64,000 nt of DNA, from NCBI GenBank assembly GCA_947034885.2, contig OX344755.2, positions 2,110,501 to 2,174,500 on the forward strand, given 5' to 3'. Below, one piece after another: positions 1 to 35,769 of this stretch. This DNA is from Thuidium tamariscinum. Lineage: Eukaryota > Streptophyta > Bryopsida > Hypnales > Thuidiaceae. Within the stretch, counting starts at the first letter, position 1; every line of letters starts with the position of its first letter. The notes beneath the pieces are model-generated. The model made no database searches, was not told the origin of the DNA, and saw nothing but the letters and a program-made list of their open reading frames with translations. The position numbers and the translations under genes were made by a program.

Positions 1-1185
1 CATCAAAAATGTGTCTAACAGCCTATTAAGTCAAATCTCAACTGTAAAAGCCTAAAAAATGACCTAGTACAAGACTAAACACTCCTAACAAACGCACCAA
101 AAATGTGAGTGATTGTAACTTCACCCTTGAACTAAAACTTAACACACGGGTTTTGATGGCAATTTTAAACAATAAATTCTAAGGTGATCAAAATAAGCGC
201 CTTTCAAGCAATGGACACTCAAATGATGTGATTTGTTCTTATAAAAGTCTAAAAAGTCTAAAAAGTCTAAAAATTAGTTTAGTTTATGAGTTAATGGTTA
301 GCTAATTGAATGTCAAAGTTTATGGATTCTAATCAAAGTTCTATCTAAACCTATCTCTAAATCTTGTTTTAAGGTTTCTAAAATGGTAAAGTAAGTGAAA
401 TTTGAAAATTCCTTTCAAAAGTTATGAAAGGATGAAAAAAACCACCTAAATTGCCCTTAGAACTTCATCCATTGTTTAAAAATAGCAAATTAGGTTGATT
501 TTACTCCAAATTTTATCCTTGAGCTCCTGACGAGTGAATTCTAGGCTTAGGTTTTATTTTATTTTTGATTTTGGGCTATTTTAAGAAAAGTTCATCCAAA
601 TGAGTTCTAACTTCATCCATCAATATCTCACTCAAAAATGAATGATTTTTCAAATGAAAAATGATTTTAGAATCCTATTTAGATTCTCTAAAAGATTCTT
701 TAATGGAATATCCCTTAAATTTTTTTCTCAAATTCTTAATTAAAAGGTTGGTTTATTTAATCTAATGATGAGTTTGATCTAAATTACTGTTTTTAGATGT
801 TTTGAAGAGTTTAAGTGAAAATTAAGAAATCTTCTTTCCAACGAAGTAAAAAGGTAAAAATTCTAAATTCTAACGAAAAAGTTATCAATGGATGAAGTTT
901 TGGTTTAAAGTTAAGCAAATAAAACTTCATCCATAAATTACTTGTGATCTAAATGAGTGTTTTAAGTTCCTAATTATCCTAAAACTTCTAAATCTATTCT
1001 AAAACTTCTAAATTCTATCAAAATTCTAAAATTCCTTTATTTTATACTTTTGAATGAAAATATCAATTTTTCATCCAAATTTCCAATATAGTTCATCCAA
1101 CTATTAAAGGTTCAAGTTTTAATGGTTTTCTAAAGAAAAATCTAATTTTTAGTTTTCTAAGGCTATTTTCTAATTTTTAAAGTCT
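1..1185. other. AT-rich intergenic DNA, nothing recognised
   Basis: No ORF with coding character, no inverted repeat and no RNA gene is visible. The stretch is low-complexity A/T-rich DNA with scattered short repeats such as three tandem copies of AAAAGTCT near 243-270. Confidence 0.6.
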
Positions 1186-1440
1186 AAATCAAATAAATCA
1201 AATCAAATCAAATCAAATCTTTGAAGATACTATTCCTTATTGTTTATTCAATTCCTCCATTAGTTTAATGTTCAAATTGAATCAAATCAAATCAAATCTT
1301 CCAAAAATACTATTTTTAATTGTTCATTCGATTCCCTTTAGTAGTTTAATGTTTAAATCAAATCAAATCAAATCAAATCTTCAAAAATACTATTCCCTAA
1401 TTGTTTTATCATTTTCCCTATTAGTTTAATGTTTAATTGT
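1186..1440. repeat. Minisatellite of about 80 bp, three units, each with a (TCAAA)n head
   Basis: Each unit starts with four or five TCAAA repeats, continues with a segment containing ATACTATT, and ends with TAGTTTAATGTT. Equivalent points lie near 1219, 1298 and 1379, a period of 80-81 bp. A fourth isolated TCAAA run is at about 1568-1591. It is a microsatellite embedded in a longer tandem repeat. Confidence 0.8.
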
Positions 1441-2505
1441 TAGTTTTGTTTTCTTCTATTTGTCTTATCAGGCCTAATAAGTCAACAAATGACAACTAAC
1501 CTAGCCTACTATTTCTAATAGAAACAAAACTAAATACTAAACAACAAACTAATGAATAGTAAAAGAATCAAAATCAAATCAAATCAAATCACATGACCCT
1601 ACCTAAATCAAATGCAAATATTCCCATAAAATATCTCCCAATTCCTTTAATCCAACATTCTAAATTCTCAAACTTCAAGTTTCCTTGTTCATTTGGTTGT
1701 TGGGATTTGATAGTTTGATGTGAGGTTTAGAAAAGTTAAACTTTGCTTTTGAAGACTTGTATTTGTTTTAGAGAATGAAAACCAAAGATTTAGGTGTCTA
1801 ATTACCCCCTTAGAACTAGCAAAGATTAGTCCAGCAATCAAAGTTGGAGTTGAGAGTTTAATTTAGATCAAATTAATTTAGATATGTACCTTTATTTTTG
1901 TCAAGTAGTCTTTGGCTCCAGTTTAATAGAGATGGCTTGTATTTTGTTTTGGTACCTCTGTTTGCTTACTTTTCTCCAATCTGTCTCCTTTTCCTCCAAT
2001 CACTTAGTCATTCAGTTAGTCACTCAGACAGACCAATCAATTTCCAATACAGTCAGGACCTCCCCGTCTTGGAATTTCAGTTTTGTTAATTGGGACCTCA
2101 ATTTATATATTGGAACCTGGATTAGCTTGGAATCTGTTGTACTGCCACTTCTCAATTTCATTGTTTAGTGACGGTCTAGTTCTAACTAAATTCTTTTAAT
2201 TTTTGAACTTTGATACTCTAATGAGGAAATTGAGAGAATTAAGGCAAATAATAATAAAAATTAACTAACTAATGAACTAACTAAATGACTAACTAATTTT
2301 TATGGGAAATTTTAGAAATAACGAAGAATTAAAGATGGCTAATTTTTATGGATTTTTGGAATAAAAAGACTAGCAACTAAAACCAAAACTAAACAATGAA
2401 TGGCAAGTTTAGAAACAAAGAATTTTCTTACACATGCATAGAAAAAATCAACGAAAATTTGGGTTTACTTAAAGACAAATTCTCACAAATTTTAGAATGA
2501 GCAAA
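1441..2505. other. AT-rich intergenic DNA, nothing recognised
   Basis: Contains two overlapping open frames near 1884-2168 with low-complexity hydrophobic translations and no family resemblance; they are treated as chance. Confidence 0.55.
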
Positions 2506-2681
2506 GTCAAAGCTTCGCCGTGTATGGGCAACCCCAAGTGTAGTAGTATAATTTCTTTAAAATTGAAGTTTTGTAGAGTCAAAGCTTCGCCGTGCGGAGA
2601 CAGCCCCAAATTTTAACGGTTGATTTTAAAGAAATCAAGGATTAAAGACCTATAGCTCCGCCATGTGGGGGCAACCCAAGC
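2506..2681. repeat. Three copies of a GC-rich motif spaced about 70 bp
   Basis: The motif GCTTCGCCGTG followed by GGGCAACCCCAA (with variation) occurs at about 2506-2540, 2577-2610 and 2647-2681. It stands out in AT-rich surroundings. The regular spacing suggests tandem duplication of a unit whose GC core was kept while the rest diverged. Confidence 0.7.
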
Positions 2682-2733
2682 ACTAACAGTAAACAGTGTC
2701 AAAAGACAAAATTAGTATTTTAAGGTTCTTAGA

Positions 2734-2778
2734 TGTTGAAGGAGATATATATGACAATGTTTAAGCTAAACTTCAACA
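2734..2778. other. Hairpin 1 of a pair: 8-bp stem, 29-nt conserved loop
   Basis: TGTTGAAG at 2734-2741 pairs with CTTCAACA at 2771-2778. The 29-nt loop contains ATGACAATGTTTAA. The partner at 2818-2860 has the same loop length and core but different, still complementary stem bases. Confidence 0.65.
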
Positions 2779-2817
2779 CTAAATTCCTCAAAATGTCAAG
2801 GTTGTTGTCACTTAAAC

Positions 2818-2860
2818 ACCAAAGGAGGTACACATGACAATGTTTAAACCGAACTTTGGT
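2818..2860. other. Hairpin 2 of the pair: 7-bp stem, 29-nt conserved loop
   Basis: ACCAAAG at 2818-2824 pairs with CTTTGGT at 2854-2860. The loop matches that of hairpin 1 at 23 of 29 positions. Four of seven stem positions differ from hairpin 1, each with a compensating change. Further short stems follow: GAGGC/GCCTC near 3066 and GAAGG/CCTTC near 3112. Confidence 0.65.
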
Positions 2861-5800
2861 ATTTAAAATTCAAATTTTGTTATACAACAAAATTTGAGCT
2901 AGATAATTAATTTAACTTACTTTTGGCAAGGTCAAGCCTCATCGCTTTAAGTGTATTAATACTAAATGTTGTTGTAAGTACTACAAAATATTAGTTTCAA
3001 ACGATTTTAAGCAATTAGAGCTTTGGAGGTCTATTCCTTCCAAACTCTATCAGAATAAAGATAATTGAGGCTTTGGCCTCTAATACAAAAGTAGAAAATA
3101 AGAATTAATTGAAGGGGCCCTAAGCCTTCAAAGTTTCAACAATAAAACACAAAATAAGCTTGGCTAAAATCTTTGGTCCAAGTTGTGTTTCGACCATGTC
3201 GTTAGCACAAAACAAGAGCAAAAGAACAAAGTGTCGGTGCACAAAAGAAAAAGGTATTGGCAAACTCGAGGGGGGCCCTTATATACCTATGGCCAGTCCC
3301 TCCCTAGTAAATTGCCAGTGAAAATACTTTGTTACTTTTTCCTTTAAAATATCCTAATGTAATTTCAAAATAATACTTGTTTAATGGTGGAAGTTCTTGG
3401 AAACACCCCTATTTAGCTAATAAAATCTTGGCCAAATCAAATCCAAGATCTTAACTCAAGATATTTTGAAATTAACCCTAATCTACCTAAATATTTTGCA
3501 AATTAACCAAAAGTTATTTTGAAAATTGTCTTTCTTTAGCTTAAAGATGATTTTTTACCCAAAAAAGAAATCTTGACCAAATCCAATTTTTGATTTTTCA
3601 AGAGATATTTCCAAAATCACTTTTAATTAACTACAATTAACGATTAAAAAGTCAAACTAAGAGCTGACCCTCTCTATCTTTTAGGGAACAACCCGAAACG
3701 GAAATCCGTCTACGTCATTGTCTACAAAAGACCCCAATTAGCCACAAGGACCCTTTATCCCTCACTCCTAGGCCGTTTGTATACCCAATTTGGAATTACG
3801 GTAACTCCAATTAAAAGTTAAAAATGTAACTTTTAGGATTTGCACATTTTGATGAATCTGTTAGGCCGGGGTTGTTAGGAATGTCTGTGAGAGCAAGGAA
3901 TGTCTCCCCATTTGCATCAATCAAACATCATTCGCTCTTGATACGCCGGTCAACCTGCAGCCAATCTGTAAATTCTGTTGAAATTTGATGTGAATACTGG
4001 TTCTGATAGTTGGGAATGTCAGAATGTCTTTAAATTTGATTGGTCATTTATTAAACACACAAAAACTTATCCTAATTTTTAGTGAGATTTTACCGCAACA
4101 TACATAATTTCTAGGAATTTATGAATATGTTTATGTGCGGTTGACTTCCCATGGAGTCAACGTGGAATTCTAGAAAAATCCGAAATAAATTGGATAACAT
4201 CTAGGGCACTCCTAGATTTTAAGTGTAAGTTCCCAGCTACCTTGCACTTGTCTATTTTTAGTAATTTGGAATTATTTTGCCCAATTGGACAATTTAATTT
4301 CCGATACTCAAGGATCTTGGACAATTGTTTGATTCTCATTCGCTCCTAGCATGCTCCTACCCTTGGAACACCTTTTTGTAGTTTTCAATTTCCAATTCCT
4401 CCATCTTCTATATCTTGATATTTCAATTCTCTAAGTTACTTGTAAAAATCTTACCTCTAAATCCAATTTACATTAGAATTGAATTTAGGCCTTGGTAAAC
4501 CTTCTCGACTTATAATAGACTCTATTGGCTTAGTCAATATGTCATGTGCATCCTTAAAAGGTTTATTTTGTACAAATAGATACTAGGACTGACTAACTCT
4601 CATTCTCTTACTTCTTTCGGAATTACTAAATATTTTCTCAAACTCACTTCTAAGACTTAGAATGATGAAAATTCTTAAAATTAGGAATTTTCCACCTTCT
4701 AAGATGGTTCTTTACCATTTTGGTAGAAACTACTACCAAATCTCTCCTAGTACTCTTTTTATGTATTTTTTCTTATATATTTGAATTAAATTTTGCAAAA
4801 TATTCGCCAAAAATGGATCCAGAGTTCCAAGTGCCAACTTGAGGGCTCATAGTACTGAGACGTATCTAGGTATAGAAACACATTTGCATGACTGCCCCAT
4901 TATAATTCCTCGCTGTCCAGATCAAAATTACAATTGGTATCTGATCTCGTATGAAGGAACTTACCTCAGCTAAATTCACACATGCTTACTTGACTGAACC
5001 CACGATTAGAAGCCAAATCGCACCCCATCCCACAATAGATTCCTAACTGGACTAGGTGCCTCGGCTGGAAGAATTCAACATCACAATGACATTTGTAAAT
5101 AAGGCAGATCTACAGGCGGTACCCACACTCCAATTAACTTAGAAAACTCAAGTAGTCAACCCTTATTACTTTCTTTGTCCGGTAAGTTTGTCGATCATCT
5201 AAACTAGGTCTTCGTGTTATTTTAGATACCCCCAATCTCAATCTCTTAATATTTCCTACATGTCGATTAAGAGGATCCGTGACTCCATGAGCACGTCCAC
5301 TAGTCCACACATTACAAAAATCTCACATCTTCCAACAAAACGCTTGCCACCTAAAACCTAAAGGATGCAAAAGGTGTGAAGTTTTCAAAAACGTAACTCC
5401 AACAAAGAGTAGGTTTCGATGCGGATATTTGAACGCAGTCGTAATCCAAAGGATACTACACTAGTCCACCTTGGCGCTAGCTTGTGCAAGGAAAGTGAGT
5501 GAAGAAGCTAGTGAATTGGGGACAAAGTGTGAGCTAAGCTTTTGTTTCCCGGACATTACTAGAATTCTTATGTCAAAGTAAAGCAATGATGTCTATCAAT
5601 TTGAATGCTCGTAAACTTGTAACTACAATAAATTTTGGCTCTATCTCAATAAGGCAAACACTATCCAACCCTGAAGTACAATTTTAGTTCTGTAATATAT
5701 TGTCCAATTCCTACAGATACACACACAGTTCCCACTGCAATGTAGAATATTAAGTAAACTATTAAAACATCTCTAACTCAACGAAGGCAAGAATGTAAGA

Positions 5801-6863
5801 ATTGACAATGGAATTCATGGTTACAGGATTTGTTGATTAAATACTTGTAAATCAGTAGGATGGCATAGTACCAGCCTTGAGCTCCAAGACTTTTGTACCC
5901 CTCATTGAGTCGTTGTTGTTGCATAAACAATTCCAAACTCATTCCACAATCGTCTTCACCTACGGGTCTCCTAGCTTGTCCTATAATTGCACTCCAATTC
6001 CATTCCAAATTGATCAACATTTAATTTAAGTAGACATTCCTAATTGCAAGTTTGCAACCTTCTAAAAATTCACATATTGAGTTCAGGAATGTACACCTCA
6101 AAATCAGATCTTGTGTCCGTTTAGGTCATTAAAAAATAACACCGTGAACCCTCATAACTCTTGGGAAGGCGAAGCAAATAATTCAAATTCTTGCTTACCA
6201 ATAGGAGAGTACTTCCAGCGGTTCTAATGTTATCTGTTTGTGGTGTTGTAAACAACTAAGTCTATATCATCATTCATCAACATGATCATGCGCACAAAAA
6301 AGGTCAAAATTTGATTTCAGAATCACCAACTGAAATCTTGTAAACAACTGGATAGCGACATACTAGAATTCTAATGTATGAATTATGAAGTCATATTCCT
6401 AATAACACACTGGGATATTGATTGATCACTCTCCATAGTTAGTAATTTATTAATGTGCATATTGAATCAACATTACAAATGATCGAGGACGACAATGATC
6501 ATCAATATGATAAGCATATGTTGAAGGCATATATTCAGGAATTGAAAGGCATATATATACAGGATGATTCCTAACATCCTACACACGAGCTCCAAAAATG
6601 AAAGAGTTAGAAGACGATGATCAAGACTTTGAAGTCACTATCAAAGTCCCAAACTAAGGATCGGAGAAAAATTCTCAAAGAGTACCTGCAGAAAACGCTA
6701 GTCGCATGGCTAGCTCTAGTTTGAGCTCACTGTTTGCTACTTGCAATTGGATGAGCACTAAATGCACTTGTATAACTGAACGTATCCGCACGCACATGAG
6801 CCTCTTTGCATGAAAGACCTTGGCTTCTGCATTAGGGAAAATATGGACTCTATGGAAGGCCGC
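2861..6863. other. About 4 kb without a recognisable gene
   Basis: No ORF over 80 codons has a recognisable product; those at 4157-4339, 5778-6020 and 6675-6872 look random. Base composition is less AT-rich than the first 2.5 kb, so decayed mobile DNA is possible. I found no terminal repeats and make no call. Confidence 0.5.
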
Positions 6864-8700
6864 TAAGAGCATCTCCTGTAGCCCGTTTAAACAGCCCTTC
6901 CAACATGTTTTTGAATGGCCTAGGAAAATCGGATCCCCAACAGCACTGTAGATGGAGATGTAGAGGTGCGGGGCCTCTAGATTACATCTCTATCCCACTC
7001 AAATTTCCATTTCTACAAGGGACCTTCACGGCCCTGCTTGGCCATCAGATTCTTTATTTTGATTAGTCAAGGGTGAAATTGTTGACAAAGTTGCCATTGT
7101 GGAAGCTACAAGTATTTTCCATGGTCGCCTCACCGTCTTTGAACTCTTTGTCCCATGTCTCTACGGCACCTACAACAAGGGTGACAACGGCAACTCCAAT
7201 ATAGAAGCGCAAGAATTACATCACTGATGAGGAGATTCAATTGTGCAGAATTGTAGATCATTTTTGTGTATTTTGCAGGATCCTATAGTTGGTATTGGAC
7301 AACGAAATGGGAATTTTTGGGAGCATATTACTCTTCACTACAATGAGTGCAAGTGTGAAGGAAGTGGAGAGTGACCAGCAAGGAGCTTGGAGAGCAAGTG
7401 GGGCTCCATCAAGCACGATGTTTTAAAATTTTGTGGTATTTATCAACAAGTGAAGGACTTGGATATTAGTGGAACCTCTGAAGAAGACTTGTGCATCCAT
7501 GCTCTTAGCTTGTATCAACACAAGCATCTGGAGAAGAAGAAATTTGCCTACTTTGAGTTTGGCTCATTTTGAGGGAGTGCCTACGTTGGAGTGAGGTGCG
7601 GGAAGAAGTGCGGCAAACTAGCACAATGCCAAGGACAGCTCAAGCTCAAAGCATAGTGACGGACCAAGATGAGGAGTTCAATTATGATGTATCCTCAAGG
7701 GTTGAAGTTTCACCGATGTCTACTCCGAATCCCCCCTCACCACAGAATAATCTTAGGCCTTTGAAGCGGCCACAGGGTTCACAAAATGCTAAAGAAGATG
7801 AGCGAATGATGCGTGGTCAAGAGTCAACAATGCGAGCTCAAGTTGATGCAACACTAGAATTGACAACTACAACACGAGAGAAGTCATGTATTTTACTTGA
7901 CCAATCTGTTTTGATGCTTTTTTCAGTGTCCAAGGCAAGCTTAGACAATAAAAAAGCTTGTGAATATATCTTAAACACCGAAGAAGGGAGGAAATGGATA
8001 AATTGAAATGTTGATTAGAAGAGAAAAAAAACTAGATGCTCTAAAGGCCGCTGCAGTTGTAGCTGAAACTAGAGAAGTAGGTAGTGTGGAGGTGGACGTT
8101 GGAGAGTAGATGGCCAATATAAGCCAACAATATGTAAATGGAGTGGGGATGGTGAATCCAAATAGGGTGGGTGCCTCTCCAACAAGTGATTCACGTAGCA
8201 GAGTATTTCTTCCTCCATCGACTGCAGCTTCAAGCTTTATTTTCCCATCACGACAACATTGGCAAGAGCGGGTGAATCTTCAACCGCCACAAGTCAATTT
8301 GGAGGACCAACACATGGCAAGAGAAGAATTCGAACACACTACCTCAAGATATGTGTGGCCACGACATAATGACTTCAACATTAACAATACCCACAATAGG
8401 ATGACAAAGCAACATCAAGATCAATTTTGGGGTAATAGTCTACTCCACTGAACTAGATAGCAGCCAACACCAAGCCAAGTTGGATATCATTTCAATCACT
8501 CACATGTTCTCCCATACTCCCCCTACTCACATAATGTAGTACTAGGTAGTATAGATCCTAGACTACTACATAGGTATGATTTACAATCAAGCCAAAATAG
8601 TCTAACAAGATTTGATAGTCAAGAAGAGAATCACGACATGAGTGTGGATCAACATTCAAATGTGCTGTTCAATTTGAACAATTCACAATTCTACTAGTCA
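6864..8700 (+). mobile_element. Decayed PIF/Harbinger element with Myb/SANT-type ORF1 remnant
   Basis: The left end is TAA (6864-6866) followed by GAGCATCTCCTGTAGCCCG, matching the TWA target site and GAGCATC-type ends of plant PIF/Harbinger elements; the element at 24957-25915 has a similar end. Inside is a degraded plus-strand gene described separately. No DDE transposase was found and no convincing right terminus could be placed, so the end coordinate is approximate. Confidence 0.55.
7205..8451 (+). pseudogene. Myb/SANT-like protein with NAM-associated C-terminal region (Harbinger ORF1 type), frame-disrupted
   Basis: Translated pieces fit the plant family with a Myb/SANT-like N-terminus and a NAM-associated C-terminal domain (PF14303-like). 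They include ITDEEIQLC (about 7,210-7,250), DPIVGIGQ...FWEHI..HY (7,280-7,340), a piece with LESKWGSIKHDVLKFCGIYQ (7384-7572), and one with LRECLRWSEV then a PLKRPQGSQNAKED motif (7569-8006). A Gln/Asn-rich tail lies at 8110-8451. These pieces fall in different frames, so the copy is not translatable as it stands. Such proteins are encoded beside the transposase in PIF/Harbinger elements, and domesticated host copies also exist. Given the GAGCATC/TAA end upstream, a transposon origin is favoured. Confidence 0.65.
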
Positions 8701-9337
8701 TTAATAAAAAAAAAAAAAGCCATTAAGTGTTCTTTCAATGTTCACAGACAAATCTATTCTACTATTCAAACATTTACAAAAGAAAAATATTTTTAAGAAA
8801 AACAATGACATTCACAACAAATATGAAGCAAAGAAAACTAAAATGACCATCTCCAAAATCAAAATGTCAATGAAAGCAAAAAGAATCACTCATAAACAAC
8901 AAAACAAATAAAACTCTAGCACACAAAACAAAAAAACTAGATGAAACACAAAATCAATAGAAGAACTCCCCAAAGAATAAACAAAGAACAAAAAAATCCC
9001 AAACAAAAAAGAATCCTATTCTCAAAAAACTCTCATTAATCACAATTGCCCAAATTTCAACAAATACTTGCCTTCTCCAACGTGAAATGGTCCCAAAACT
9101 TGAGAATGCTTGCCTTGAAATCCAATTAAGCACCCTATGAAAAAAAATAGAAAATAGGAAGCCTAAGCCTATTTTTCTAAAAATAAAGAGATAAATCACT
9201 TGGAAAATCGTGGAAAACTGTCAAAGTGTCTAATGGCCTCCAAATTTCACACATGGGTGCCTTGAACTACCAAGAACATGTGGACGAAGTTTTGATCCAT
9301 TCCAATAATCCAATTAAAATTTGTGGTGAATTTTGCC
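8701..9337. other. A-rich intergenic DNA
   Basis: A long A-rich stretch with a poly-A run near 8706-8718. The minus-strand open frame at 8954-9199 is low-complexity (F/I/W-rich) and not credible as a gene. Confidence 0.5.
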
Positions 9338-9618
9338 ATTAGGAGGGATTTGAGGACTGCAAAGAGCCGTTTCGGGACTATTCCCGAAACTGGTCTAGGA
9401 ACGGCTGGCCGCTGGTCAGCATTTAAAATTTAAAAAAAAATAAAATTTGGGTCCTGAAATATGAAAAAAAGTCCAAAAAAATTTCGAAAAAAAAAATTGA
9501 TGACGTGGCACGGTCTCGACCACGTCGGATTCCTACAGAACTACGTTTCCGCGGCTGTTTTCGCGATTTTGGGCTGTGGGAACTCATAGGCTCCCAGAGC
9601 CTTCAAATCCCTCCTAAT
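9338..9618. mobile_element. MITE with ATTAGGAGGGATTTGA ends (copy 1)
   Basis: Inverted ends ATTAGGAGGGATTTGA at 9338 and the reverse complement ending at 9618. The interior holds a self-complementary GGGACTATTCCCGAAAC segment, a TCCTGAAATATGAAAA(AT)AAGTCC motif, and a GACGTGGCA...CGACCACGT segment. All of these recur in the copy at about 24998-25283, so this is a repeat family. No clear target duplication; superfamily not assigned. Confidence 0.75.
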
Positions 9619-9850
9619 GTACTGTGACTATTGTGTATTGTCCTTAGTGCATTATTGAGAGTTATTTTGAGTGACAATGTTTCTTTTAGTATAAGGTGTT
9701 TACAATTTATTTTGGTGTTTTTTTTTGGTGCTTGAATTAGTCATAGGTAAGGACATTGTGAAATATTGTTTTATTATTTGTATTGCTTTATATTTTATTT
9801 TAGTACCATATTTTCTTGTGTTGTTGATTCTCTTTGATCTTTTATGTTTT

Positions 9851-9905
9851 TGAAAGTATTTTTATGTGTTTGAAAGCATTTTTATGTGTTTGAAAGTATT
9901 TTTAT
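9851..9905. repeat. 20-bp minisatellite, left arm (3 units)
   Basis: Units of GTATTTTTATGTGTTTGAAA with small variation. The mirrored tract on the other arm has six units. Confidence 0.8.
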
Positions 9906-10068
9906 TTGTTGTATGTGTTATTTTTGGAAAGTACTTTTACTTTGGAGTATACTTTTATTTTATTAGTTTTGGATATATAATGAAGTATAATGAGCTTTCT
10001 TTTGTACATTCTTTCTCATTTGTTGGGCTTTTAGTTTTCTACATATTATATATATTTCCTTTCCTTTT

Positions 10069-10512
10069 GTGTATCACATTTTCTTCTCTGTGGCTTCTTC
10101 TTCAAACTCTAAGGGACGTAAAAACAAAAATTCAAAGAGATCTAAACCACGTGAGTATGGGAAAGTGGAAGGGAGGAGAGTTTTGGAAGATGACAATGTC
10201 TATGAATTATGTTTCAATGACGTTGGATCTGTTGGTTGTACGTACTTTCTTCATCGCAAGCGGCAACGTCATTTGATAATGTATGTTATTCCTTATCCAT
10301 TCACCTTAAGGAATCAAACTTTTAGAAAGTTATTTAATAATGAGGATGTTGAACTTTTTAAAGGGATGATTATACATGAGTGTCACAAGATTTGCAGTAA
10401 TTGCCTTGATAAATATAAAGAGGAAGGGCAAAGATGTAAAGTGTGCCCAAATCTTGCAAATTTGGATTACCAAATTTATTGCAAGCCTATGTTGAATTCA
10501 TGGGTTTGTTGA
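10069..10512 (+). CDS. Unrecognised Cys-rich protein ORF, left arm
   Basis: A 147-residue ORF that I cannot assign. The N-terminus (about residues 10-30) is Ser/Lys/Asn-rich and basic. A central part contains YFLHRKRQRHLIMYVIPYP. Residues 105-126 have a C-x3-C-x2-C-x10-C-x2-C pattern preceded by His, suggesting a small zinc-binding module. A second ORF follows in the same frame at 10690. An identical copy lies on the opposite arm at 12090-12533. Composition is far less random than in chance ORFs nearby. The true start, and whether the two ORFs belong to one spliced gene, is open. An overlapping frame from 9866 is F/Y-rich and probably not coding. Confidence 0.5.
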   Translation: MYHIFFSVASSSNSKGRKNKNSKRSKPREYGKVEGRRVLEDDNVYELCFNDVGSVGCTYFLHRKRQRHLIMYVIPYPFTLRNQTFRKLFNNEDVELFKGMIIHECHKICSNCLDKYKEEGQRCKVCPNLANLDYQIYCKPMLNSWVC

Positions 10513-10689
10513 GGGTTCATAATTGAATCTTTAATAGATTATCATAGAGTTGTTGAAGGGTGCAAAGAGTATATTGCGAAAGAAAGGAATAATGCACTTC
10601 CAAGATTAGTTATACAATGTGAAGTAGAATTAAATTGCACCTTATATACCTCTACTAGTGAAGTTCTAAATTTACCAACAGGAATAACA

Positions 10690-11097
10690 ATGCACATTAG
10701 TTATTCAAATATACCAAGTCAAAATAACACAAGGACTCATACAATACCATATTGGAAATTGAGAGAATATAATAATGACGAATATAAGTGGGAAGACATT
10801 TTCCAAGATGAAAATTTAGTACCTACTATTTCCCAATCAACTGTAATATTTGATGGTATCAAAATTACCCTTGACACTAAAGACTTGGAATTGGAGCATG
10901 TTATTTTAATTTATGTTCCGTGTATGTTAAGTGAAGGTATTTATAACTCTACATTGAGGTTGGAAAATGTTTACTATAAAGGGGCTCTTGTATATGGAAA
11001 GAAAAGTGAAAAAAAAGCAAAAAATTCACAACGTGGAAATTACAAAAATATTAGTCATGGTTATTCTTCAAATATAGGGATGAATACCATTGGATGA
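10690..11097 (+). CDS. Unrecognised protein ORF, left arm
   Basis: 135 residues, acidic to neutral in the middle (WEDIFQDENLVPTI, LDTKDLELEHVILIYVPC), with a Lys-rich tail (KKSEKKAKNSQ). No family recognised. It lies 178 bp after the Cys-rich ORF in the same frame, so it could be a second exon or a separate gene. The copy on the other arm (11505-11912) differs by one residue (Ile/Thr) near the C-terminus. Confidence 0.45.
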   Translation: MHISYSNIPSQNNTRTHTIPYWKLREYNNDEYKWEDIFQDENLVPTISQSTVIFDGIKITLDTKDLELEHVILIYVPCMLSEGIYNSTLRLENVYYKGALVYGKKSEKKAKNSQRGNYKNISHGYSSNIGMNTIG

Positions 11098-11504
11098 GGT
11101 TTTTCTATAGATATTAAAAGTAGAAGGATTTAGCAATAAAATTGACTTAGTTACAGTCATTGTGCTTTTTTCAAGTTAGAATGGGTAAATGTATTATACA
11201 AGTAAAGATTTATGATTTGAAAGGATTAGACAATGTTTTATAAAATGCCGATATTTATAATCATGAATCATAAAATTTTGACTTAAAGCATATTGCTACT
11301 TTTATGAAATCACTAAACAATTAATGAAAGAAAATTGAAATGTCTATTGTCCATGACTATTTTGTGGATCTAGTGTATACCAATATTTTTTATGTGGAAT
11401 TCCAGTACGTCTCTAAGTTTGAGCTGTCAGTTGATTCTATACTCTAGGTTTTAACTACTTTTATTATCAATAGAAAAAACACTTTTAATATCTATAGAAA
11501 AACC

Positions 11505-11912
11505 TCATCCAATGGTATTCATCCCTGTATTTGAAGAATAACCATGACTAATATTTTTGTAATTTCCACGTTGTGAATTTTTTGCTTTTTTTTCACTTTT
11601 CTTTCCATATACAAGAGCCCCTTTATAGTAAACATTTTCCAACCTCAATGTAGAGTTATAAATACCTTCACTTAACATACACGGAACATAAATTAAAATA
11701 ACATGCTCCAATTCCAAGTCTTTAGTGTCAAGGGTAATTTTGATACCATCAAATATTACAGTTGATTGGGAAATAGTAGGTACTAAATTTTCATCTTGGA
11801 AAATGTCTTCCCACTTATATTCGTCATTATTATATTCTCTCAATTTCCAATATGGTATTGTATGAGTCCTTGTGTTATTTTGACTTGGTATATTTGAATA
11901 ACTAATGTGCAT
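11505..11912 (-). CDS. Unrecognised protein ORF, right arm copy
   Basis: Mirror copy of the 135-residue ORF at 10690-11097, differing by one residue. Being on the opposite strand and convergent with it, simultaneous transcription of both arms would produce complementary RNAs. Confidence 0.45.
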   Translation of the reverse strand: MHISYSNIPSQNNTRTHTIPYWKLREYNNDEYKWEDIFQDENLVPTISQSTVIFDGIKITLDTKDLELEHVILIYVPCMLSEGIYNSTLRLENVYYKGALVYGKKSEKKAKNSQRGNYKNISHGYSSNTGMNTIG

Positions 11913-12089
11913 TGTTATTCCTGTTGGTAAATTTAGAACTTCACTAGTAGAGGTATATAAGGTGCAATTTAATTCTACTTCACATTGTATAACTAATCTT
12001 GGAAGTGCATTATTCCTTTCTTTCGCAATATACTCTTTGCACCCTTCAACAACTCTATGATAATCTATTAAAGATTCAATTATGAACCC

Positions 12090-12533
12090 TCAACAAACCC
12101 ATGAATTCAACATAGGCTTGCAATAAATTTGGTAATCCAAATTTGCAAGATTTGGGCACACTTTACATCTTTGCCCTTCCTCTTTATATTTATCAAGGCA
12201 ATTACTGCAAATCTTGTGACACTCATGTATAATCATCCCTTTAAAAAGTTCAACATCCTCATTATTAAATAACTTTCTAAAAGTTTGATTCCTTAAGGTG
12301 AATGGATAAGGAATAACATACATTATCAAATGACGTTGCCGCTTGCGATGAAGAAAGTACGTACAACCAACAGATCCAACGTCATTGAAACATAATTCAT
12401 AGACATTGTCATCTTCCAAAACTCTCCTCCCTTCCACTTTCCCATACTCACGTGGTTTAGATCTCTTTGAATTTTTGTTTTTACGTCCCTTAGAGTTTGA
12501 AGAAGAAGCCACAGAGAAGAAAATGTGATACAC
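12090..12533 (-). CDS. Unrecognised Cys-rich protein ORF, right arm copy
   Basis: Amino-acid identical to the 147-residue ORF at 10069-10512, including the C-x3-C-x2-C-x10-C-x2-C cluster at residues 105-126. Confidence 0.5.
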   Translation of the reverse strand: MYHIFFSVASSSNSKGRKNKNSKRSKPREYGKVEGRRVLEDDNVYELCFNDVGSVGCTYFLHRKRQRHLIMYVIPYPFTLRNQTFRKLFNNEDVELFKGMIIHECHKICSNCLDKYKEEGQRCKVCPNLANLDYQIYCKPMLNSWVC

Positions 12534-12697
12534 AAAAGGAAAGGAAATATATATAATATGTAGAAAACTAAAAGCCCAACAAATGAGAAAGAATGTACAA
12601 AAGAAAGCTCATTACACTTCATTATATATCCAAAACTAATAAAATAAAAGTATACTCCAAAGTAAAAGTACTTTCAAAAAATAACACATACAACAAA

Positions 12698-12815
12698 TAA
12701 AAATACTTTCAAACACATAAAAATGCTTTCAAACACATAAAAATACTTTCAAACACATAAAAATACTTTTAAACACATAAAATACTTTCAAACACATAAA
12801 AATACTTTCAAAAAC
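12698..12815. repeat. 20-bp minisatellite, right arm (6 units)
   Basis: Reverse complement of the left-arm tract with three additional units, one of 19 bp. This is the main difference between the arms. Confidence 0.8.
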
Positions 12816-12850
12816 ATAAAAGATCAAAGAGAATCAACAACACAAGAAAA

Positions 12851-13044
12851 CATGGATGGTCAATTTCATTAAAATGGCGATACTCTAGTAAAATGGCATG
12901 ACATTCTATTAAAATGGTACATTTTCTTCCTCTACTACTAAACCTCTATGTCAAAATGACACTTGAAATTTGTCAAAGTGGCACATGGAATATGTCAAAA
13001 TAGCACTCGGAATACCACCATTTCAACAAAATTGACCATCTATG
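12851..13044. mobile_element. Short MITE abutting the inverted duplication
   Basis: Ends CATGGATGGTCAATTT at 12851 and its imperfect reverse complement (AAATTGACCATCTATG) ending at 13044. The left half contains three TTAAAATGG/TAAAATGG units, the right half three GTCAAAATG-type units, so the interior is itself repetitive. It starts at the base after the last base of the right arm. No target duplication is clear. Confidence 0.65.
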
Positions 13045-14000
13045 TATAGTTTTAAAAATTCCATACAAGAAGTTTCCTCCAATTAAAATTAAAATTTTAT
13101 TAAAAAATCCAAAATTTGAGTAGCTCATCCTATGATACATGTATACAAAAAAAGGTCATATACTTAGTTTTGTAATGCTATTATTTTCTCCAAAAATATT
13201 AATTTCATATATATAATTACATTTTTATATTCCTAATTAAAAGATATATAAGAATTTTCTATACTAGAACAAATTATATCCCTTTGAGATTGGACTGAAA
13301 TACATTCTAAGTGATTATAGTCAGGGCTATATAATATAGGAGTTGCATATTTGACGTAGCCTATGTTCAAATTATATATCTATGAACCCTTTTAGCTCCA
13401 AAGTTGATTTTGGGCGAAGGCAAGACATTTCTAGTACCAAGCTAAACATGGAAATACATAGTGAACGATCATGCATTCCAAAGATTTGACCATTCTAGTG
13501 GAATGGGAATGAATGCTTGGCCTCCACAAAAAATTTTGTGGCAATTATAGGTTTTCTTGCTAAAAGATTTTTGGATTTTTAGTCCATATCTTGTTTGTTT
13601 TTTCAACCCTTAAGTTGCATGCTAGTACAAATTGTTGTCATTCTTGTCCCAATGTATTCAATTCCCAATTTCCCACACAACCTTGTATTTGTATTTGAAT
13701 TAATTCCAAGACTCTAGCTACCATTCTACCAATAAAAAAGTGTCAATTTTGACCAAGAAGTGGTCAACTAATCCCTAAAAGGTTAAAATAGACAAGTCTA
13801 TTACCACCCTAATTTACAATATACCTCAATATCTTTGATCCAATTCAAAAATAGTCACACTTTTTACAAGTGTATTGTTGATTCACAAACCCAATCCAAG
13901 TGGAATTATAGTTTATCAATTGAAGCTGTAATTTACATGAGTTTTTGAAGTGGATTATTGTGAAATTACAAAACCACATAGTAAAGTCATAAACACCCTA
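13045..14000. other. AT-rich intergenic DNA, nothing recognised
   Basis: No coding signal or repeat boundary found. Confidence 0.5.
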
Positions 14001-15047
14001 TTAACCCTTAAACACCGGACCTATAACCACTATTTCCAAGCCTTTGTACCCAATACTCAGTTTGCCACCATTTCGGGACTAAATATGTATGAAAAATTTT
14101 ATACTTATTTTTTAGAGATGAAGTTAAAGTAAAACAACCTATTATAGACCAAATGAGGAGTTTGCCCTCATGTTACTATTGAAATCTTCTAATTTTTTTT
14201 CCACATGTGGACAAATGATAGAAATGATGAAAGCAGTTGAAACTATATTTTTTGGATAAAGTGTGAATTTGTTATGAATTTTTGAAGTGTTCCACCCATC
14301 ATGGTTTTTAGACTACCTCCAAACCAACTACAATTGTATCCATAATGGTCATCTTACTCACCTAATGTAGTCAAAATATTTTCTAACACAAAAGGTTTGA
14401 AAGAATCACTTCCTATAATGAATTAACACTAAAAAGTTGAAAGTTCCTATTATAGTCACTAATCACCCCATTTTTGTTAGCTAAGACATTGATTGTGGAC
14501 AAAATCTCATTCTTTGAAAGAAAACTGTAATGGGCTCATTCCTAGGAGTCTATAATGGGTAAAAATTCTATAATGGGTTGTTTTACATTACATCTCTTTT
14601 AAACTTCCCAAAAAATTTAGATTTTTTTGAGAATTTTTGAAGAAAAGTGAAGAAAAATCATATCAAATAGAAATCTATCTTAAAAAATCTAAGAATTTCA
14701 TCGTGTGTGTACATTTTAGTGGCAAACATCATGGTATAAACTCAATTTTTGTGTCATTCTATAATTACAATCCAAAAGACATTGAAAACACATCCAAAGT
14801 TTAAATTGCATTAAAATATTCAAATTTATGATTTTTTTCAAAATTAGAGAAGAAACTACAATAGATGACCTTCATTTTGTTAGTTGGGTTCAAATTCAAA
14901 AAATATTTTTTTGTGGAAAAATTTCAGTTTTAGAGCAAGGAATAACAACTTTCCAAAATACACTAAAAATTGCTAGCAATCTCCTTAGACATTGCTGCTA
15001 AGTCATCTAAGTGCCACAAAATGGCATCACCAATGTTCCAAGGTTGA
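14001..15047. mobile_element. TTAA-bounded element, family A copy 1 (piggyBac-like ends)
   Basis: Starts TTAACCCTTAAACACCGG at 14001 and ends ...TTCCAAGGTTGA at 15047, the last four bases being a probable decayed TTAA. It aligns along its length with the copy at 30127-31122 (shared segments such as GGCAAACATCATGGTATAAA and TTTAGAGCAAGGA). CCC...GGG ends inside TTAA are the hallmark of piggyBac-superfamily elements. No transposase is present. A PIF/Harbinger-like MITE is nested at 14127-14587. Confidence 0.65.
14127..14587. mobile_element. Nested PIF/Harbinger-like (Tourist-type) MITE
   Basis: Ends GTAAAACAACC and GGTTGTTTTAC, extended by YATTATAG, flanked by TTA on both sides (14124-14126 and 14588-14590). 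The empty site is preserved in the sister element at about 30246-30262, where GAAGTTACATCTC is uninterrupted, so both element and 3-bp duplication are supported. A related divergent member lies at about 45463-45796. Confidence 0.85.
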
Positions 15048-16762
15048 TAACCTATAACCACCTTGAAGTGTATCTATTGACACTTAGGTATCTACCAATC
15101 AAGGATTGACATGTTCTCCAAATTAGAAATAACTACTTATGGAATACACAACATACTACTAACTAATGGTCTGTTTAAAGAGATCTACTAGTCAATGGAT
15201 TTTTTTCTTGCGATTTGGTACAAAATTGCACCAAATTTTTTCACTTGGCACTAAGTCTATAGGAAAAAAACAGTAAAATTTTGAATGAAACTGCCAATAA
15301 ACTTCAAATTTTAAACTAGATGAAATCACCAAATAATGTATTATGCGCTAATATGATATTTTCTCTCCAATATATGGATGAATGTTGAGATTAAGAGCTC
15401 CACAATAAAATGAAATATCGTCACTTTGGCACTTCACAAGAAATGAAAAAGAAAACCCTGCTGCTGGCCCTCATGATAGCCCCCTATGCCTGTGCGCCAA
15501 GTCATGTTACACTTCATGACTTGAATGACAATCACAGTAAGTTAAGGAAGAGGATAGAGTTTCGGTCACTTGAAAACATGCAAGACTCTTGGGAGATCAG
15601 TATATTTAAGGTTAACTTTCTGCAGATCGAATTTCCATCACTCAATGAACAATGACCTCTTATTCCATGATTCCAGCTGGGAGGTTGGAGATCAACCACC
15701 ACTTGAGACAATACACAACCCCGTTTCTATGGAAAAAAAACAAATCAGAGGCCATTCAACAATTTTAACAAAGTCATGTTCACACCAATGGTTGGCAATT
15801 GAAGGCCAACCAAATGGATTGAAAAAAGAGGAGTTGCTGTTGGTAACAGGGGTCACTTACGAGATGGAAACCTTGTTATGACAAAGTACTTCGATCATGC
15901 CAGATGGGAGCCGTGTAAGCACCACCTGTAATCTCAAGCTTATTGTGCAATCTAGAGTGACACTACTTAACACATTGTACAATACATATTGTATGAATTA
16001 ATTTCATCAACATGCACTGAATTTGCCAATCTCACCTGATTGATGAATCTTAAGCAATTGAGTTTAACATAAACTGGGTATGAGTGTCCAATCAGAGACC
16101 CTGTACCCTGAAAGGAAAAAAGGAGCACTGAAGGAAGCAAAGAAGGTTAGTCCGTTAGTACCCTTCAGCCTTTCAATCCATTAACATGGATGGGTACCAC
16201 AAATGCACAACTGGTATTAAGCTTAGCAATCACAGAAGGTTAGTACCCTTGAGCTGTCAATCCAGTGACATGGGGGGTACAAAAACAGGTATTAGAAATC
16301 ATTCAAGATGTCTCTGCTTCTGACAACCCAGTTCTTACCAGATTCCAATTTCAGAAGACGGCAAGCCGGGAAGTTCTCCGTTCACATAGAAGAATAAAAG
16401 CTTTCTAAATTCAAACCTTTATTCTAGTGAACATAATCTGGTCAATGATTTCAAAATTGTAAACAAATTTCAACTATCTTGTGCAATACTCACTTCGCAC
16501 GACTATATGAATCGGCTACTTGATGTAATGATTCCAATATAACGCTAGAGTTTAACGAAGAGGTATTCTCTTATGGGCTACAAAACCGTTGTGATATCCT
16601 AATTTCTCTAACTTAAGAATTCAGTTGCGCAAGGTAGGGTCGCAGCAACTCTGTCCCGTTTGACAAGCTGTGAAATTGAGCTGTCCTCGCTGCAATAAAA
16701 TCACCTAAAATGGAAAGACGGTTTATCTTTGTGTCGGGAGGAAAACAGTCCACAGTGGGTGT
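15048..16762. other. Intergenic DNA downstream of the YchF gene; weak ORFs only
   Basis: Less AT-rich than its left neighbour. Open frames at 15410-15655 (81 aa) and 15570-15881 (103 aa) overlap in different frames and match nothing I know. The segment before 16763 may include the YchF 3' UTR. Confidence 0.4.
16142..16294. repeat. Imperfect tandem duplication, period about 92 bp
   Basis: AGAAGGTTAG...TACCCTT..GC...TCAATCCA...ACATGG...GGTAC...GGTATTA occurs at 16142 and again at 16234. Confidence 0.65.
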
Positions 16763-19700
16763 TTAAACATTGAATCGGAAAAGCATGACATCGCCCTCTT
16801 TCACAGTGTACTCCTTACCCTCTGCACGCATCTGCACACAGATAGATTCACAGTTGTCGTAAGAACTTCCAGCTGCTTGAACCCTCAAAATTTAAAGGGC
16901 ATATACGACCCCTGCATGAAAAATATAACCATACTTTGATCTTCGCAGTTCAAATCCGTGGCAGCGAACTTTGCAAATTACTAATATTTGAACCACATGT
17001 AACATCACATATAACCACATGTAACCACCACGTAACATAACCAGATTTGGAAGGAATTATTAATGTTTTTCTTTAAATTTTTTATTATTGAATATTGACT
17101 AGTGCAATGACTTTTTCATATTTATGATCTATACGTCATAAGTGCACAAGTTTAATATGAATATCACCAACAAATAATTCTTTTAAGCTCCACGGTATAC
17201 GACATCGTCATACTTTTGAAATCTATAGACCCCCATTTATGTTACAAAAAGCTTCCCACTGAGTAATAAGAACCCATTGGACTTGTCCAAAAGCCCGCTT
17301 CCGCCAATAGCTTCAGAAATTAGACTGTGAATGCCTATCTTGGATATGGAAAAATCTCTTACCAAGCCCTTTTCCTTCGCAGCAGTGTAAGAGCCTGCTT
17401 TAACGTAATCCTCATACCCAACCTGCATGCACACAACAGTAGCAGGTATCAGAATTACCACCTCAGGCCTTGGACAGAACGAAAAGATAAAAACTCTACA
17501 AATCTTTCACGAATGCACAAAATCTGTCCCCAAGTGCTCACTTTTAAAATAGATGGTCCACTGTGGAAGCTAGCTGTCAATTATAGTAACTTTTACTACT
17601 GATTTCTATGTTTAAAAAACGTAGTGAATGATCTCTTCATTCAACTGGTAAAATCTTGTTACCACGAAGCTTGGAAAATAATCCTTGTCAACTCCAATAG
17701 ATTTGTAAGCAACTAATATTGCCAATTTGCGCACATAGGGGTTAAACCGCCTAAAACATTTCAATACAGAGTGAGAGCTTACAGTCTCAGCACGAATGAA
17801 TCCGCGCTCAAAATCTGTGTGGATGACCCCTGCAGCCTGTGGTGCTGTCATCCCAGCCAAGATTGTCCATGCCCTTGTCTCCTGTCATCGTTACAAGAGA
17901 ATAAGCCCTCATTCTGTTAGCTGATTAATATGCAATCAGCTAACAATCATATTCGAAGTATTCTGTCCATCACATGTATTGGGTGAAACAAATAGACTAC
18001 AAATAGGAAATTGTTAATGACCGGTAACCAGATAACTTTTCAGTGGTCCGCAATTAGCTCAACATTAACTGATCCTAGACTATTTTGTTAAATCTAGACC
18101 ATCAATGGGCAGTCGATCTTTGCTGAAAGAAATTTAGGTCGAAAATGATTTAATGATCATTTCAAGAGTCAAAATCTCTAATTTCTGAATTCAAAGAGGA
18201 TTTCAGATGGCTTATTAGTCAATTTCATTGCTCACAAACATTTTCTTAAACAAAGCTCTAGAGTTAAACAGCTCTATTAACACTACAGAATCGAAAGAAA
18301 CGACGAAAAACCTAGAAAATATTATATGGATCGAAATAACAGAGAATAGATTCGACAAAGAGGGAATTGCAAGATTTAGAGACGATATCCTTACGGCATT
18401 TATTAAGAAACATAGACACAGAATTAGCAGATTCCCAACCTTTTCTCCAGAAGTAAAATATGTCCGCAATCCCAGAAGGTTATATGTAGCTCGCACAAGT
18501 GAGCCCAGTCCTCCTTCGCTAACACCAAGTGATTGCAAGTAATCCTTCCTCTCTTCTGGGTCAAGCTCGGTCAGTTCTGCCTCCACCTGCGTTCACCTAA
18601 ACAACTGTAAAATCTGGATGAAATCATTATCCACTTCTGACCCATATTTCAAATGAAATACTTCCAACGTCTGAGCTGATTGAAAAGCAACTTCATACAG
18701 CTTCAAATAGTCTGAAAGAGTACTCCATTGAATTTTAAGAACGAGGTCAAAGTGGGATGGGCTTAAAGGATTTATCTGATATTCACGTGTGTCTCAACTG
18801 TGAAAATGTGAGCACATATCGATTACCGGTAGTGTAGAATAAGAAATGCACCTGGGCAGAAACAACCACAACTTCCGCATTGAGAGCGGCAGCACAGTTC
18901 TTGACCTTATCGACATAGGGATTCCCTGATGCATCTGCAAGCTCCGACTCTGCGACGTTGGCAGCAAAAATGACGGGCTTCATGGTGAGTAAACAAAGTT
19001 GCTGGACAACCTTGCTTTCCTCCTCATCTAAAGGTACCATTCTTGCGGGTTTCCCATCCAACAATGCGTCATTGATTCTTTTTAAAGCTGTTATCTCAAT
19101 CTCTTCCTGCACAAGAATATCGTCTCAGGCAACCAATTTGTGCACCTCAATAGTACTCCCTCCGTCCAGAGATAATTGTCCACTTTGGACCTCATGTTCT
19201 TGACGTTGTTTTGAGTAGGTCATATAGAGCTCTCTTGTGTCCAATTTTATTTAGATTGCAATAAGCACATGAATGTTCTTCACAGGTTCTGGTGATAATA
19301 AATTTGGAACCTTCATGAATTATGTTCATCACAATAAGATCAATAAAATTGGAATTAAACATTTTCAACAAAACTGCGGACACTTATTTCTGGACGGAGG
19401 GAGTAATTCATAAAAAGCGGCAGGATTGGAATGCAACACCTCACATGCAACTTAACTCAAATGACTCATGAAATGACTTCTGATTATTTTTATGCAAGAA
19501 GAGCAGAGCAGAGAAGACATTAGAAAGATATCACTCTGTGAAGAGGAAATGCTACCTTCGCTTTGACTTGAGGATCTTTTGCCCTACCCTTTTTGAGCCT
19601 CTCCAACCTCTTCTCAATCTGCAAACTTCGAACATCGTGCCCTTGAGATAGAAAACAAACCACTAAAGATTTGAATATCACGTAGAACGTAATTGAATAC

Positions 19701-21837
19701 CAGAGTGAATAAGGATGGGAGGCATTCTTTCACCTGAGAAATGTCGGCAAATGCGAGCTCTAGGTTGATGATGTCAATGTCCACCTCAGGGTCCACTTTT
19801 CCATTGACGTGTACAATATCGTCATCCTCAAAGCACCGAACTACCTTCCTACCCACAGAACTCAGCCACATCAGTCTCTGTGAATTGAGCTTCTGAAACA
19901 AAAGATGAAAGGTATACTAAACGCCAGAAAGTTGAAATTTAGGGTACGCCAATCGTCTACAGCTACGATTAGGAATAGTTATAAAACATACAAAACAGAG
20001 CGCTAGTTCTTCACCTGAAGAATGCAGTCGACTTCACGAATGTGCGACAGAAACTTGTTCCCAAGACCCTGGATGACCCATGTGCAGCATCAGAAAATCA
20101 TCAAAAGAATACTACCAAAGATTTGAACGCCAGTAGACTGTGAACAAAGGGCTACGAAACTGAGCCTCAGACCACAACTTGGATTTAGATTAGTAACTCC
20201 TGGTGCCCTATACTTGCCAGCATGACGCATTAAGCAAATTTAGTTTCATAAAAGAGGAAGAGAGGGGGAAAAAAATCTTGAATCATGTGACATTGTTTCA
20301 AGTATTATACCTCATTTAAAGTCTAAAAAATGTGCCTCACCACACGTGTTCGTATAGAACCTACTAAATGCTCCCCAATATAGAGGACACTAAAACCATC
20401 AAAGAACCGATTCCGTCTATCCTACATACGTGAAAGTGATGCAAAGGTGATGCAAATAGTATCCTCTACTTCATTGAACTCAGTCCAGCTGAAATTGCAG
20501 AATGGCCAAACTATTACAATCGATAATCAGACTGAGCGAATACATGGGAATCGCCCACTGAAACAATCTCGAGAACAGTTTTCAATGGTGTATGGAGAAT
20601 GGAAATGTACCTCCCCTTGACTTGCACCCTTGACAAGCCCAGCAATATCCACAAACTCAACACTTGTGGGCACGATCTTCTGGGACTTGCTCAGGGTGGA
20701 GAGGACCTCCAACCGTGTGTCTGGCACTGCTACCACGCCCACATTGGGCTCTATAGTGCAGAAAGGAAAATTCGCCGCTTGCGCTTTGCCATTCTCAACC
20801 TGCCTCAAGCGATTCAAAGCTGTGTTTACAACCCTTCAAAACGGCCTAGATTTCTTACACAACATTCTCAAGAATCAAAAATAAGAATCCGGAGCACTCA
20901 AATACTGAAGAACTAGACCACTTTTGAAGCAATTTGTCACATTGCTAGACATGCAATCACTATCAAGCGAGTCTATATGTAAACATGTCAACTAAAGATT
21001 GGATAAAATGAAGTAAGTAATTCTAATGTGATTCACACCTGCCTTTAAAAACATAACATGGGGACACTTGCATTATGGTGTACCTCCTCCAGGCACATGT
21101 CCCTCATGGAGACATTCTCCACGGGGTACCAAGGTCCGCCATAACAGTGTACCCCACGATATGAACTCCAGATTGTGTACAAAAGAATCCGGATTCCTTT
21201 CCTTGGCTCATCGTTCATTAATTCCAAAGGTGTTCAGGAAGCTTCCGAAGAACATTATGTGCAAAACTCGAATTATTTCCAGTTCCAGTTTCAAATAAGG
21301 TTTAGTCGTCACAGCATTGAACGAAGTGGACTATTCTGCAAACATAAAATGAATATCCTGTGATTCAAAAGTTAGGTCTAGCAACCCTGAAATGGAGTAT
21401 TCAGAGACCCGAAATCTAGGTCAAGCAAGCGTGAAATCGAGTGCTCTGTCACAATTTGAGTCTAGCAACCATGAATCGAAATTTAGGTCTAGTGACCGTA
21501 TAGTCCAGTTTTCTTCGAATCTCACCAAAGCATTGAACAATGTCGACTTCCCAACATTCGGAAGCCCCACGATGCCACTCTTCAACGCCATGCTCACTCT
21601 GCCACAGGAGAATCGTCGCCTGAGTTCCATCGCCACCACTCTCTGCCCCATGACGCTCGAAGAAACCGTGCCCAATCTCGACGCAGCTACACTGATTGCA
21701 TTGTTGCCGCGAATCGACAAGAAAATTGTGTGATGAGGGTACACTACTGACATGAGTGGAATTCGGGTGCGGCAAAGCACTGCGGGGATGTGCGACGCCA
21801 TAGCCATCACTCTGCAGCTGCACTTGCAAAGCACCAA
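16763..21837 (-). CDS. ychF: Plastid-type YchF/Obg-like P-loop NTPase
   Basis: Ten exons: 21526-21837, 20611-20799, 20015-20068, 19734-19844, 19556-19618, 18852-19106, 18440-18586, 17783-17881, 17363-17422, 16763-16831. All junctions have GT/AG and keep frame, giving about 452 residues. Seen: G1 loop GLPNVGKST (91-99), [10 protein letters not shown]3 [10 protein letters not shown] (155-164), NVAE (293-296) where classical GTPases have NKxD, and a C-terminal TGS region from LLGLRTYF to the FRFNV end. Known: YchF/OLA1 proteins hydrolyse ATP more readily than GTP and associate with ribosomes. The roughly 80-residue N-terminus, rich in Ser/Arg with few acids, looks like a transit peptide, and the sequence is closer to the organellar plant form (Arabidopsis At1g56050 type, from memory) than to cytosolic OLA1. 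A second Met at 21807 is an alternative start. Intron 5 carries a Stowaway MITE. Confidence 0.95.
19156..19403. mobile_element. Stowaway-type MITE in YchF intron 5
   Basis: Begins CTCCCTCCGTCC and ends GGACGGAGGGAG, flanked by TA on both sides (19154-19155, 19404-19405). This is the canonical Tc1/mariner-derived Stowaway end. 248 bp, wholly intronic (intron 19107-19555). The interior includes a GTCCACTTTGG...GCGGACACTT extension of the inverted ends. Confidence 0.95.
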
Positions 21838-35713: not shown

Positions 35714-35769
35714 TTAACCCCTCAACGCCCAAGCAGCAAAAATATCACCTTCCACAATTTTTCAATATA

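Follow-up and report, generated by a model that had tools for sequence, protein, structure and literature searches.

A near-perfect palindrome in a decayed PIF/Harbinger-associated element of Thuidium tamariscinum, probably formed by template-switch repair of a passenger gene

A near-perfect inverted duplication in the window, which is the whole stretch of 64,000 nucleotides that was analyzed and which a genome search placed on contig C7 of a 363-Mb, 19-contig plant genome, probably records a one-off accident of DNA repair. We propose that fold-back or template-switch repair made a palindrome of the passenger gene in what is now a decayed PIF/Harbinger-associated element. Comparison with relatives elsewhere in the genome identifies the arm as the upstream region plus the 5′ part of a gene of about 530 amino acids, and the spacer as the antisense 3′ part of the same gene. 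The rearrangement is of a known kind; what is unusual is its recurrence within one gene family.

Architecture of the inverted duplication

The locus contains the following features, in window coordinates, with a strand where one applies.

7509 to 7814, plus strand: remnant resembling the NAM-associated open reading frame (ORF) of the PIF/Harbinger-type element at locus L012 (tblastn, 32.7%, E = 4.6e-6)
7713 to 9805, plus strand: part of the element that precedes the gene and is colinear with locus L009 (89.9% over 7713 to 9340; resumes at 9620), with a MITE-like insertion inside it
9337 to 9619, no strand: MITE-like insertion with inverted ends, missing from the corresponding position of L009 and L010
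9806 to 11121, plus strand: left arm, made up of the minisatellite, upstream sequence, and the 5′ part of the passenger gene, 94% to L009
9840 to 9910, plus strand: 20-bp minisatellite of the left arm, 3.5 units
10090 to 11093, plus strand: 5′ part of the gene frame with a RING-like stretch inside, GTG start, and in-frame stop at 10510 to 10512
11089 to 11093, no strand: junction 1, joining the 5′ part of the gene to its antisense 3′ part, with ATTGG common to both
11122 to 11480, no strand: spacer of 359 nt, which together with 11089 to 11121 is the antisense 3′ part of the gene
11455 to 11502, no strand: junction 2, with CTACTTTT common to both sides, an 18-nt filler, and a 24-bp imperfect tandem repeat
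11481 to 12855, minus strand: right arm, an inverted copy of the left arm that includes 28 nt past junction 1
12692 to 12821, minus strand: 20-bp minisatellite of the right arm, 6.6 units
12850 to 13045, no strand: MITE-like repeat with inverted ends, abutting the right arm, with ACAT or ACATGG (4 to 6 nt) common at the joint
13037 to 13349, no strand: high-copy repeat, found at 39 other places among the best 40 of 1213 first-look candidates

Aligned to each other, the arms are identical at 1312 of 1316 bases (four substitutions), with a single 59-nt gap that falls within the 20-bp minisatellite, where the right arm is longer. An ungapped match between them runs for 1282 nt at 99.7%, which is not a chance resemblance; the six other inverted matches of at least 100 bp in the window span 117 to 1007 bp at 72 to 95%. 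The original prediction of a near-perfect 1.3-kb inverted duplication around a 359-bp spacer, with arm lengths that differ by minisatellite units, is thus confirmed, except that the outer ends lie at 9806 and 12855 rather than at 9811 and 12850. The two ORFs that it assigned to each arm (10069 to 10512 and 10690 to 11097 in the left arm) are present but are not separate: they form one frame split by the stop. Two separate genes per arm were accordingly ruled out, both ORFs being in one frame.

Self-complementary sequence occurs elsewhere in the window too. The segments at 30856 to 31058 (203 bp at 95%) and 25307 to 25524 (219 bp at 84%) look like small hairpin repeats, and about 1 kb at 35768 to 36759 matches its own reverse complement at 74 to 78%, with a 173-bp tandem repeat at 36198 to 36695.

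The arms differ at 9810, 9926, 9987, and 11075. When relatives are aligned, the change at 9926 is assigned to the right arm and those at 9987 and 11075 to the left arm, while 9810 is ambiguous. So few substitutions, polarized on both arms, support the earlier suggestion that the arms are young or have been kept alike by conversion, two histories that are not separable here. An old palindrome whose arms gene conversion keeps identical would explain why they are 99.7% alike when the nearest relatives differ by 4 to 6%, as well as the arms of a second palindrome of the family (L013), which are identical over 1409 nt. Youth accounts for the same facts, however, and a third palindrome (L050), with arms alike at 297 of 321 positions (92.5%), indicates that not every palindrome of the family is kept alike; we therefore consider long-term conversion unlikely, if a credible alternative.

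Single-arm relatives reveal the source of arms and spacer

A genome search with window positions 9811 to 11121 as the query returned 26 matches in all, including both window arms and weaker pieces. Single-arm copies, for which the original prediction had proposed a search, do exist: an arm on contig C5 (L009) at 94% and half an arm on C4 (L010) at 96%. More distant arm copies lie on C7 (L011) and C5 (L012), both at 76%, and an arm-related palindrome lies on C2 (L013) at 70%. In this search, the two arms occurred together only at the window locus, and the nearest relatives were single-armed.

L009, L010, L011, and L012 are colinear with the window locus, and L009 supplies an order for comparison. 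Read in the sense of the gene, it has the upstream region and 5′ part (window 9620 to 11109), a middle of about 446 bp, and the 3′ part (window 11462 back to 11089), whereas the window has the upstream region, the 5′ part, the antisense 3′ part, and the inverted 5′ part, and the middle is missing. The spacer is therefore the tail of the gene in reverse, and the middle has been lost. The spacer as unrelated DNA was ruled out, given that 11089 to 11462 is 93.9% alike to the 3′ part of the L009 gene in antisense. Homology to L009 also continues leftward past the left arm (7713 to 9340 and 9620 to 9805), and no L009 match was found to the right of the right arm when window positions 1 to 20000 were searched.

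These relationships bear on a further proposal of the original prediction, that the locus is the unit of a palindromic element. Foldback (FB-type) elements have long inverted arms with subterminal repeats, and the window shares both features, its subterminal repeat being the minisatellite; L013 adds a second near-perfect palindrome of the gene family. Unlike such elements, the window locus was not found as a repeated unit, and its arms are gene sequence. The genome search recovered these breakpoints at no other site, colinearity with single-arm relatives extends leftward far past the arm, and the breakpoints of L013 differ. A mobile foldback-type element of which the window is one copy is thus disfavored and, in our judgment, hardly credible.

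Other repeats accompany these loci. L009 carries direct repeats of about 735 bp (164 to 894 and 7219 to 7948; 85% alike) that flank the gene and a transposase piece, and its homology with the window ends at the second of them. L019 contains, at 3155 to 4245 (C11:6.064-6.065 Mb), an array of about 1.1 kb whose units of about 21 bp resemble the arm minisatellite.

Junctions and a possible course of repair

All three joints of the rearrangement carry short shared sequences. Junction 1 shares 5 nt (ATTGG), or 3 nt if L009 has the ancestral base; junction 2 shares 8 nt (CTACTTTT) as it stands and 6 nt relative to L009; and the outer joint of the right arm shares 6 nt (ACATGG), or 4 nt if the original end is the one seen at the opposite end of the MITE-like repeat. 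Of 20,000 random joins simulated within L009, 1.0% reach 5 nt, 0.3% reach 6 nt, and 0.04% reach 8 nt. Because the inner end of the right arm holds 28 bases past junction 1, that junction was made earlier than the right arm or in the same event.

We envisage that a broken or gapped copy of the element underwent repair synthesis that switched templates at short common sequences. In a first switch, via 3 to 5 nt, synthesis would have left the 5′ part and continued on the opposite strand at the 3′ end of the gene. A second, via 6 to 8 nt, would have moved synthesis onto the strand just made, after which the 5′ part may have been copied outward for 1.3 kb and joined to the repeat end via 4 to 6 nt. 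A repair origin appears to be the best reading of the colinearity with relatives, the microhomology at three joints, and the other pairs in the family with other breakpoints. Against this reading stand the possible reduction of the overlap at junction 1 to 3 nt, the lack of a transposase in the window at E ≤ 1e-3, and the failure to find element ends or target-site duplications. Moreover, a stepwise history, with the inversion first and the duplication later, fits as well as a single event.

The closest mechanistic precedent is provided by fold-back inverted duplications, which, as reported in PMC3907307, have spacers and 2 to 8 bp of microhomology. The window likewise has a spacer and short microhomology at its joints. 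However, those duplications involve large chromosome segments, whereas the window holds 1.3 kb inside a transposon, with a second switch and the loss of the middle of the gene.

Association of the gene with PIF/Harbinger transposons

The surroundings of the palindrome appear to be those of a degraded element. No transposase was found in the window (tblastn, E ≤ 1e-3), and the window thus holds a PIF/Harbinger remnant, in which the ORF at 7569 to 8003 has no Pfam match. Pfam matches in the window or its relatives include DUF1218, NAM-associated, and Plant_tran, which are plant families and point to a plant genome. The MITE-like insertion at 9337 to 9619 has copies at 79 to 80% in L010 and L020.

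More complete relatives place the gene within a transposon. L011 and L012, which are 97.5% alike over 8.4 kb and lie on different chromosomes, carry the gene with a Plant_tran transposase (PF04827, E = 1.2e-81) on one side and a NAM-associated ORF (E = 1.2e-9) on the other. They represent either a segmental duplication or a PIF/Harbinger-type family that is still young. Neither element ends nor target-site duplications were located, and the 8.4-kb stretches of L011 and L012 stop short of the ends. Among the matches listed, a transposase lies within 10 kb of the gene at 6 of 52 loci, with 0.4% expected per locus (binomial, 9e-8), although at most five of the six are independent, since L011 and L012 are near-identical copies. 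Gene and transposase are convergent at four of these six loci, but not at L011 and L012.

A sibling element at C2:19563716-19569445 has a transposase 95% alike and a further ORF 93% alike to those of L011. The two lie 4.4 kb apart there versus 6.5 kb in L011, i.e., 2.1 kb closer, and no passenger-gene match appears at this sibling among the matches listed. Given this spacing and the lack of a listed match, some copies of the element may lack the gene, which would then be a dispensable module.

Recurrence of inverted pairs in the gene family

The 52 gene loci are clusters of the 80 listed gene matches, from a search that scored the best 81 of 122 candidates, and so the counts are lower bounds. 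Among the matches listed, 7 of the 52 loci contain an inverted pair of one gene segment, overlapping or no more than 425 bp apart. Three pairs were seen as DNA (the window, L013, and L050) and four from protein matches alone. At L013 (2363 to 5205; C2:43.087-43.090 Mb), arms of 1409 nt without a mismatch are separated by 25 nt. Different parts of the gene are represented among the seven pairs, and this argues for repeated accidents rather than for selection of one piece.

Controls yielded fewer such pairs. Transposase loci, drawn from 108 of 153 matches (listed rows at 25 to 29% identity and unlisted rows were left out), had inverted pairs at 2 of 75 loci among the matches listed (Fisher p = 0.03 versus the gene). 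Judged by eye, opposite-strand pairs within 3 kb numbered 1 in 150 rows for RVT_2 (taken as 1/149 in the Fisher test) and none in 150 for hAT, both among the matches listed, and none in 33 for MULE. Because the control domains are short (84 to 244 amino acids, versus 530 for the gene query), partial inverted copies can be missed among the controls. The excess over transposase loci is modest.

The same census bears on the reality of the palindrome. Long-read sequencing is known to generate near-perfect palindromes as artefacts, which makes an assembly error conceivable. But the arms differ at four sites plus 59 nt, their flanking sequences are not alike, and a family with seven inverted pairs, one of them with 7.5% arm divergence, does not look like the product of random artefacts; we consider an error very improbable.

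The passenger protein, a candidate dioxygenase

The passenger protein has an N-terminal RING-like stretch, which scores under Pfam's cut-off, and a C-terminal domain with the motifs HxD, ITWF, and HGTL. Across 13 relatives, the HxD..H pattern has an invariant H119, with D121 and H169 conserved in at least 90%. The window copy stops short of this region, starts with GTG where L009 has ATG, and contains a stop that is missing from L009 at that place; the L009 frame is broken further on.

A profile of the C-terminal domain from 13 sequences, searched against 177,635 PDB sequences, gave Chlamydomonas CMD1 as the first of three matches at an E value of 0.034, which became 0.6 with a 23-sequence profile and is not significant by usual limits at either size. 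The alignment spans the HxD and the distal H and, counted by hand, pairs them with the CMD1 iron ligands, given as His345, Asp347, and His397 in PMC7854593. This resemblance to an algal TET homologue is weak, and we treat a TET/JBP-like dioxygenase as a lead. With a whole-protein profile, CMD1 was not among the 25 matches at E ≤ 10, which were mostly RING proteins. Scans of 23 and 22 members against Pfam matched no dioxygenase family at E ≤ 1; Pfam, NCBIfam, and PHROGs gave no name beyond the sub-cut-off RING finger; and viral contigs and phages held no relative of the gene at the limits used. Predicted models of the C-terminal domain were too poor (pLDDT below 50) to bear on the double-stranded beta-helix fold of TET/JBP dioxygenases, and the first of them had 44 PDB matches at E ≤ 10 and none at E ≤ 0.001.

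The closest precedent for such a gene is PHISTA, the TET/JBP-carrying Harbinger transposons of rust fungi described in PMC12730594; in a literature search for dioxygenases in land plants or carried by plant Harbinger elements, this fungal work was alone in addressing the subject among the best-matching titles. In both PHISTA and the passenger family, the HxD..H pattern belongs to a gene close to a Harbinger-type transposase. In contrast, the passenger family is from a plant and has a RING-like N-terminal stretch, its similarity to TET/CMD1 is only suggestive, and the window copy lacks the HxD..H region.

A possible hairpin RNA and the comparison with Mu killer

Both arms read 5′ to 3′ toward the center and the left arm retains its native upstream region, which makes a hairpin transcript plausible and the long dsRNA of the original prediction structurally possible. 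Transcription from that region could give a hairpin RNA with a stem of about 1.3 kb and a loop of about 0.36 kb, and small RNAs aimed at the two nearest single-arm copies might arise from it. L009 contains exact arm 21-mers at 462 positions and L010 at 324, versus 3 in L011, 12 in L013, and none in L012, L014, and L017. Such sharing marks possible targets only, and its concentration in L009 and L010 means that any effect in trans would be narrow.

The closest functional precedent is Mu killer of maize, reported in PMC3440606 as a partial inverted duplication, of about 1.3 kb, of the 5′ part of the mudrA gene of MuDR. The window, too, contains an inverted duplication of a transposon gene, of similar size and again from the 5′ part, and both could give hairpin RNA. 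However, the window is PIF/Harbinger-associated, its gene is a passenger rather than the transposase, the antisense 3′ part of that gene forms the spacer, and silencing is known for Mu killer only.

By analogy, selection might preserve the window locus for a hairpin RNA that acts in trans to silence the transposon family. The shared architecture, the inverted pairs at 7 of 52 family loci (among the matches listed), and the 21-mers in L009 and L010 favor this idea. Yet pairs spanning different parts of the gene are what accidents would produce, and the five other loci examined share few or no 21-mers with the arm. We consider a selected silencing locus quite unlikely and continue to prefer a one-off repair accident. 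A bolder extension, in which a plant PIF/Harbinger lineage carries a TET/JBP-like anti-silencing dioxygenase and recurrent fold-back copies act as natural hairpin silencers in an arms race over methylation, is a long shot.

Implications

How plants first recognize transposons is unsettled, with naturally occurring inverted copies among the triggers proposed. Among the matches listed, a single gene family offers seven inverted pairs, and for three of these the DNA itself gives arm divergences of 0, 0.3, and 7.5%. With such graded divergence in one family, small-RNA mapping could test whether relatives are silenced, comparing young pairs with old. Finally, if the passenger is a DNA dioxygenase, the theme of transposons that carry their own methylation eraser would extend from fungi to plants.
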